The position numbers and the translations under genes were made by a program. Of a DNA stretch of 64,000 bases, positions 21,751 through 22,080 are shown one piece after another. Source of the stretch: Fidelibacterota bacterium (GTDB taxonomy: Bacteria; Pseudomonadota; Alphaproteobacteria; Rhodospirillales; Rhodospirillaceae); contig CANJMF010000003.1 of assembly GCA_947475895.1 (NCBI GenBank), positions 1 to 64,000 of the forward strand. The letters run 5' to 3'. The notes under the pieces were generated by a model. The model did no database searches. It was not told the DNA's origin and saw only the letters and a list, made by a program, of their open reading frames with translations. Position 1 is the first letter of the stretch. Each line of letters opens with the position of its first letter.

Positions 21751-22080
21751 CGGGCTCCCCCGCTGTCCAGAAGCGACGGCGCAAAAAAAGCGGGGAGCCC
21801 GTCTTATAAAAGACCTGCCCCAGCCGCCGAATTTCGGGGGTTGAAGGGTGGGGAGGGAATGGAGGCGCTTCCGATTAAACGGAAGGCCGTCCGCACAAAG
21901 CCCCAAGTTTCGGGGCGCACAACGCGCAGTAAATGCGCGTCAAAAAAAGAGACGCGCAGAAATGCGCGTCAACGAGGCCCGCGCGAAGCGCGGGTAAGAG
22001 AAGCCGCGAAGCGCGGTTAAAGAAACTCAGCGCGGATTCAACCGCGCGCCATTTTTTTTCACCACGCGACAAATGCGTGG
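21751..22080 (+). repeat. Array of consecutive small hairpins upstream of ccrM
   Basis: About eight inverted repeats follow each other. Perfect stems are at 21868-21885 (6 bp), 21900-21916 (5 bp), 21922-21940 (7 bp), 21951-21970 (8 bp, GAAA tetraloop), 21978-21994 (7 bp), 22004-22016 (5 bp), 22030-22047 (6 bp) and 22062-22080 (6 bp). A longer imperfect one spans 21751-21801. Spacers of 7-13 bases in the middle are purine-rich. Three hairpins share an AAATGCG right arm, so some may be duplicates. The whole block would lie in a long 5' leader of ccrM if transcription starts in the GANTC region. There are no CRISPR-like spacers and no coding potential is apparent. Confidence 0.65.
22030..22059 (+). 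terminator. Terminator-like hairpin in the ccrM leader
   Basis: GCGCGG-ATTCAA-CCGCGC followed after GCC A by eight T. It has the form of a Rho-independent terminator 40 bases before the ccrM start. It could end a separate small RNA covering the hairpin array, or act as an attenuator. The GANTC site at 22035-22039 overlaps its loop. Confidence 0.5.

Follow-up and report, generated by a model that had tools for sequence, protein, structure and literature searches.

A conserved leader RNA of ccrM in a Rhodospirillaceae-like clade and its predicted pairing with a trans-encoded small RNA

The preferred reading of the DNA in front of ccrM, to which we give a probability of roughly two in three, is that positions 21744–21923 of the window (the whole 64-kb stretch that was analysed) encode a conserved 5′ leader RNA of this gene, found in one Rhodospirillaceae-like clade, which is base-paired by a trans-acting small RNA (sRNA) with a change in ccrM expression as the outcome. 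The conservation, structure and strand of the leader, its complementarity to the sRNA, the site's uniqueness within the window genome and the parallel change of the two partners were computed; both RNAs are presumably made, and their pairing in the cell, followed by an altered output of CcrM, is predicted from sequence. A leader site matching the loop of an sRNA suggests that a small RNA may help to set the amount of a methylation enzyme, and the reading supplies an exact 13-base candidate site. CcrM is described as a central clock component in many Alphaproteobacteria and as essential in several, and ccrM transcription is reported to be activated by CtrA in Caulobacter (PMC8959179). If the reading is true, the control of bacterial DNA methylation would gain a post-transcriptional layer, exerted by a dedicated sRNA whose site co-evolves with it.

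Extent and structure of the ccrM leader

The gene downstream of the leader is the one that we take to be ccrM, from its Pfam and homologue matches together with what is known of the family (Table 1). Matches to ccrM were obtained in 56 of the 61 genomes searched, the own genome included, a few of them weak. The GANTC cluster of the first-pass annotation exists, with 6 sites in the 120 bases preceding the leader; the mean is 5.3 GANTC per 120 bases before the leader in 24 loci (window included) versus 0.25 in 799 background stretches. TATGAT at 21736–21741, which overlaps the last GANTC, is likely the −10 element, and transcription would probably start just behind it; a sigma-70 scan gave no plus-strand promoter in 21637–21743. 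RNase HII and ccrM are separated in the window by an HWE histidine kinase and a response regulator (19562–21586). In many relatives, on inspection by eye, the DNA immediately ahead of the ccrM leader encodes the C-terminus of an RNase HII-like protein.

Table 1. Features in and around the ccrM leader (positions in the window)
Feature	Position	Strand	Basis or remark
GANTC-rich promoter region	21637..21743	+	GANTC at 21637, 21657, 21666, 21676, 21730, 21739
Conserved ccrM leader RNA (P1-P2-P3)	21744..21923	+	covariance model R1
P1 hairpin	21752..21800	+	inner stem P1b 21761-21767 / 21775-21781
P2, CCTGCCC (21814-21820) with GGGTGGG (21846-21852)	21814..21852	+	91.8% of cells paired
Predicted sRNA target site GGGTGGGGAGGGA	21846..21858	+	GGTGGGGAGGG invariant in 22 aligned leaders
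Hairpin in insertion between P2 and P3	21868..21885	+	this genome only among 22 aligned leaders
P3 hairpin GCCCC-AAGTTTC-GGGGC, then conserved GCACA	21900..21921	+	alignment of 22
Tandem hairpin array	21922..22080	+	several relatives have a single P4 hairpin at this place
Terminator-like hairpin with GCCA and T8 behind its stem	22030..22059	+	terminator scan
Putative Shine-Dalgarno region of ccrM, GAGGGGATTGAGGCG	22084..22098	+	sequence
ccrM, cell-cycle GANTC adenine methyltransferase	22099..23247	+	PF01555 (N6_N4_Mtase) E 1.1e-67; RAMA PF18755 E 1e-14

The upstream DNA of oriented ccrM genes of relatives was compared, and a core could be aligned in 21 relatives plus the window; alignment A2 leaves out the window and two loci of genus g3 (L019, L036), and the covariance model R1 was built without the window sequence. 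R1 matches the window at 21746–21923 with 89.5 bits (E 3.2e-23). By R1 the leader is present in 26 of 73 family genomes; G020 scores 29.5 bits and each of the other 25 at least 41 bits. In 25 of the 26, ccrM lies directly downstream, the remaining copy (G003) being at a contig end. The common block follows a GANTC-rich promoter in genera g1, g7, g9, g18 and g3 of the same family; among the 30 genomes of these five genera, the leader-less ones (G006, G018, G067, G090) show a partial ccrM or none. Under the stricter filters of large searches and at E 0.001, R1 found 19 of 297 genomes order-wide and 1 of 385 class-wide, the latter being the window's own. Two further genomes gave R1 matches at E 0.01 or better, and both matches were rejected as leaders: that of G067 is the opposite strand of an sRNA gene, and that of G069 resembles coding sequence by eye. 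Second, weaker R1 matches (21 to 30 bits) occur in four genomes. The one in G010 (29.9 bits) is again the opposite strand of the sRNA gene, as is the one in G066 by position; those of G015 and G012 score 23.1 and 21.1 bits. At the gathering score, Rfam recognizes a single tRNA in the window and nothing in the leader region, where the best hit at a relaxed threshold has E 0.13, in keeping with the earlier statement that no known riboswitch is present.

The leader is a structured RNA that covaries through P1b. All 7 pairs of P1b are formed in each of the 21 aligned sequences; 4 of them show two-sided changes, and a U-G pair is invariant. The outer P1 stem appears in single-sequence folds of 22 of 24 loci by reading and is absent from L009 and L017; the long imperfect hairpin proposed earlier at 21751 corresponds to this conserved P1. 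Each of the 7 pairs of P2 changes on just one side, giving no two-sided covariation, and the P3 helix is paired in only 73.8% of cells, with GGG and CGCA columns that are invariant in 22 sequences. The covariation score of the leader, carried by P1b, is 0.287 versus 0.20 in shuffles (reached by 0 of 500) and at most 0.15 when the alignment is slid, and there are 19 two-sided cells versus 6.1 in shuffles (again 0 of 500). Pairs with a two-sided change number 6 versus 4.1 in shuffles, and 50 of 500 shuffles reach 6. G-U combinations are far more frequent than A-C in the leader helices (93 versus 9 cells), which argues that the RNA is likely read in the ccrM-sense strand. A pseudoknot between the P1b loop and P3, considered by eye only, showed no consistent pairing.

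The hairpin run between P2 and ccrM

The run of hairpins at 21751–22080, which first drew attention to this region, is real. When perfect Watson-Crick stems were sought, with a minimum of 6 bp and loops of 3–8, 6 were found in 21861–22090, versus a mean of 0.57 and a maximum of 3 in 300 dinucleotide shuffles. They are the proposed hairpins at 21868, 22030 and 22062 (6 bp each), 21922 and 21978 (7 bp each) and 21951 (8 bp, with the 4-nt loop GAAA as claimed). The stems at 21900 and 22004 have 5 bp each and fall below the scan minimum. For such stems, 21861–22090 is the densest 240-base stretch in the 64-kb window. The fold energy of 21587–22130 is −239.2 kcal/mol versus −190.6 ± 7.2 in shuffles (z −6.7).

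The run, on which the first-pass annotation laid its emphasis, is nonetheless mostly an expansion in this genome, and the hairpins of 21922–22080 show no conservation in the relatives read. Many relatives carry a P4 hairpin of changing sequence between P3 and the start codon; in the window, tandem hairpins replace it, and the stretch from P3 to the start is the longest among 24 loci. What can be retained of the proposal that a structured 5′ leader controls CcrM is a conserved RNA with covariation in P1b that precedes ccrM in 26 of the 73 genomes of the family (one of these copies being at a contig end), while the control itself is a prediction. A separate small RNA, also proposed, is possible in the form of a product of the leader itself ended by the terminator-like hairpin. 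The region holds 4 terminator-like sites (one on the plus strand) versus 2.1 in shuffles, so the terminator call at 22030–22059 is weak on its own, and no clear counterpart of this hairpin was seen in the relatives read.

A predicted trans-encoded sRNA complementary to the leader

Two weak R1 matches far from ccrM (L137, L139) proved to lie on the reverse strand of an sRNA gene, which is located upstream of a gene identified by Pfam as a gamma-glutamylcyclotransferase (gcc). In the own genome the sRNA gene lies at C9:44809–44894 (L211 8810–8895), with gcc on one side, a 115-aa open reading frame lacking a Pfam match on the other, and nrdA/nrdB near. A search with the gcc protein located the sRNA in 19 of 23 loci checked, the window genome included; the other four were G007, G064, G066 and G090, and the G066 copy was found later with the covariance model R2. 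The leader is present in G007 and G064, which yield no usable sRNA (a contig end and, by eye, a transposase-like sequence at its place, respectively). At the G064 locus (L258, end of contig C2), the sRNA place is seemingly cut, by eye, by the transposase-like sequence near the contig end, and the terminator part remains.

In 18 of 19 folds (the G014 excerpt is too short), the sRNA forms a hairpin of 7 bp, whose C-rich loop measures about 25 nt, and then a terminator with a T-rich tail. The stem that closes and exposes the single-stranded loop is formed in 19 of 19, the helix of its own Rho-independent terminator is paired in 95.2% of cells, and a terminator scan detects the terminator in the own-genome copy. 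Two-sided changes occur in 8 of 18 pairs of the sRNA alignment. R2 matches of at least 50 bits are present in 27 of 73 family genomes, a count that includes the 19 training copies, and in an order-wide search at E 1e-6 in 24 of 297 genomes, 22 of those in this family. Rfam gave no gathering-score match on two sRNA loci (best 23.3 bits versus a cut-off of 45 bits). Seven weak R2 matches were discarded, as they look like terminators and have no C-rich hairpin; those of G022 and G073 may be distant sRNA relatives. Similarly, R2 matches of 39–41 bits in two other families of the order (G248:C1:3700178, G297:C144:5763) are possible distant relatives. Second R2 matches of 37–44 bits in two species (G024 and G065; L242, L244) share a CTTCCCCAAGCAC segment and a near-identical terminator and may represent another sRNA. 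In several relatives, by eye, the sRNA comes directly behind another small open reading frame, so it could be 3′UTR-derived there.

A near-invariant leader segment is the reverse complement of the C-rich loop of the sRNA, giving a gapless complementarity (G-U allowed) of 10–24 bp in all 17 genomes that have both. The longest Watson-Crick pairings reach 22 bp in G010 and 21 bp in G008; in the own genome there are 13 bp with one G-U. The pattern GGGYGGGGRGGGR, which stands for everything able to pair with the own-genome loop over those 13 positions, occurs at exactly 2 places in the 3.3-Mb own genome, the ccrM leader and the other strand of the sRNA gene, versus 0 for the reversed control. The 12-mer GGGTGGGGAGGG has extra occurrences beyond leader and sRNA in G003, G013, G024, G035 and G066, and more in other genera.

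The two partners also change in parallel. The leader has 4, 3 or 2 G before its central U and the loop has 4, 3 or 1 C, and the two counts go together in all 17 genomes compared by script and in 19 of 20 once G026, G035 and G066 are added by eye. The exception is G035, with GGG in the leader and CCCC in the sRNA. On the CcrM tree, where many forks are unresolved, the leader type changes 4 times, one change being that of G035, so that at most 3 of 4 leader changes are matched by the sRNA; moreover the genomes are related, and 20 genomes do not amount to 20 independent events. In genus g3 the motif is lost in 3 of 3 leaders, and in 3 of 3 loci there is no sRNA between the small protein gene and gcc. 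In genus g2, a TCGTGGGG-like stretch of the leader is a candidate partner for the 3′ part of the loop in the sRNA of the same genome, with Watson-Crick runs of 10 in G019, 9 in G096 and 8 in G092, and 9 with wobble or 7 without in G091 and G095. These runs are little above chance for such lengths by our own estimate, and G019 and G092 have an equal or longer wobble run elsewhere, so the g2 pairing is suggestive only; R2 found no sRNA at 50 bits in two further g2 genomes (G093, G094).

The mean Watson-Crick run of own pairs is 13.9 versus 12.9 when pairs are swapped between genomes, a difference of one base, because the core is common to all genomes. In 13 of the 19 genomes in the energy test, from which G003 was left out, none of the 40 loop shuffles equals the cofold energy of the real pair. 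In the other 6 some shuffles do as well: 4 of 40 for the window genome, 2 for G011, and 3 to 7 for four C-type genomes. The predicted G-rich site in the target leader, 62–241 nt upstream of the ccrM start, is what a trans sRNA with a C-rich loop would be expected to bind. In the free leader most of it is base-paired (mean unpaired 0.23), and its strand of P2 hardly varies, so that its conservation may serve P2 or another cause. Blocking the site in silico raised the predicted pairing of the ribosome-binding site (RBS) and start in 5 and lowered it in 7 of 22 leaders. This effect is inconsistent and no direct RBS switch is seen; an RBS switch on sRNA binding is thus not supported by these predictions.

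Proposed mechanism, known systems and alternatives

In the preferred reading, the leader RNA would fold as P1, P2 and P3, and the 3′ strand of P2 together with the bases after it (GGGTGGGGAGGGA) would be the docking site of the trans-encoded sRNA, whose 5′ hairpin presumably exposes the C-rich loop of about 25 nt and whose 3′ end is a predicted intrinsic terminator. Pairing of the sRNA would open P2 and make a duplex of 10–24 bp at the above distance before the ccrM start, and the duplex may alter the stability of the ccrM mRNA, the folding of the leader or its expression. As a default guess by analogy, the effect would be stabilisation or activation of ccrM, since two sRNAs that act through C-rich loops, GsrN in the case of katG and PmaR for most of its targets, are activators. 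A wider proposal, that the sRNA is a dedicated RNA arm of the CcrM epigenetic circuit and determines methyltransferase dosage by docking at a co-evolved leader site, is put forward as tentative. If true, GANTC in the ccrM promoter and GANTC before the sRNA in some species would form a closed loop of methylation and RNA feedback. However, the window genome has no GANTC within 140 bases before the sRNA, so such a loop cannot be general. Control of the sRNA by GANTC was rejected: sites are found within that distance in 11 of 19 copies (G004 and G005 not counted) versus 147 of 419 background stretches.

The closest known parallel, a likeness by features, is GsrN of Caulobacter crescentus, whose 5′ part presents an exposed C-rich loop that pairs with a G-rich stretch of an mRNA leader, the first 7 nt of katG, as demonstrated by compensatory mutations (PMC5869019). 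The predicted pair differs in its target, ccrM, in its length of 10–24 bp instead of 7, and in its place within a conserved structured leader. GsrN proper would be expected beside ecfG/nepR/phyR or under a sigma-EcfG promoter, although C. crescentus departs from that neighbourhood according to the same report (PMC5869019). The own sRNA adjoins gcc, and the 10 open reading frames scanned in 19 kb around it (biotin genes, nrdA/nrdB, gcc and others) include no general-stress regulator. PmaR of Agrobacterium tumefaciens resembles the sRNA, again by features, in its single-stranded C-rich loop, part of a spoon-like structure, and in predicted sites that mostly do not lie near the RBS, with mostly positive regulation (PMC6234868). 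Its targets are cell-wall genes, ampC and others, and as described there it has no conserved leader element (PMC6234868). Cell-cycle regulation by sRNA or ncRNA has been reported in Alphaproteobacteria for EcpR1 of S. meliloti (PMC4414408) and CcnA of Caulobacter (PMC8959179). By the title of its paper, CcnA targets CtrA and GcrA, and in the available text on EcpR1 ccrM appears once, in the reference list. BASI74 of Brucella is reported to act on a DNA methyltransferase gene, which encodes a cytosine-N4 enzyme, unlike CcrM (PMC6146029). Searches of the open-licence literature, judged mostly by titles and the beginnings of abstracts, turned up no sRNA acting on ccrM, and ccrM is missing from the predicted targets in Table 2 of a Caulobacter ncRNA survey (PMC5988900).

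The same complementarity can be read the other way round. In the strongest rival, a doubtful one in our judgment, the leader acts mainly as a sponge that titrates the sRNA; the anti-Shine-Dalgarno-like C-rich loop would silence other mRNAs, and transcription of ccrM would free them. A site 62–241 nt from the start, whose blocking brings no consistent change in RBS pairing, suits a sponge well, as does a leader that is the only 13-bp match in the own genome besides the sRNA gene. The sRNA also exists in genus g2, whose leader offers a short site at best, so other partners probably exist. Nevertheless, ccrM is the only gene before which the leader was found, and its excess over ccrM mRNA is an assumption of the sponge reading. 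Alternatively, the leader could be a riboswitch-like cis element that senses a protein or ligand, the complementarity to the sRNA being a by-product of a G-rich recognition motif. The conserved P1b loop, the invariant GGTGGGGAGGG and GGG-CGCA columns, and a P2 strand conserved without two-sided change would all be natural in such an element. That CcrM uses SAM also speaks for this reading. However, the parallel run lengths in leader and sRNA and their joint absence in g3 are not expected of it, and the leader has no Rfam match; we regard it as unlikely.

Other explanations concern the hairpin run. It is quite unlikely that the tandem hairpins and 22030–22059 make up a transcription attenuator in this genome, releasing a short leader RNA. 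The GC-only stem followed by GCCA and T8 and the unusual length of the stretch before the start speak for it, but the stem is 6 bp long and separated from the T-run by a gap, shuffles yield 2.1 sites of this kind, and the P4 region of relatives, as read, has no comparable T-run. Mobile or DNA-level repeats of the REP/MITE type are highly improbable: the palindromes are tandem, GC-rich and have arms in common, yet the hairpins of 21922–22080 have no other copy in the own genome (next best match E 0.25). The conserved leader helices are also rich in G-U and poor in A-C, which says nothing on the array itself. Least probable of all is that the hairpins reflect coding by an Arg/Lys-rich open reading frame, the frame 21841–22020 with an ATG at 21859 behind GGGGAGGG, since the segment is missing in the relatives read, where no conserved frame was seen, and 21862–22017 has no Pfam match in the scan.

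Two minor observations on the relatives may be added. In genera g2 and g5 (L024, L026, L264–L269), the P3 hairpin stands immediately before the ccrM start, where its GGGGA could act as a Shine-Dalgarno sequence. The named relatives are MAGs whose titles give Rhodospirillaceae, Alphaproteobacteria, Proteobacteria or Marinimicrobia, and two of the titles indicate an origin in Baikal. The ccrM genes of six loci (L031–L033, L036, L038, L039) are 79–85% identical to that of the window and belong to MAG records titled Candidatus Marinimicrobia, titles that look wrong.
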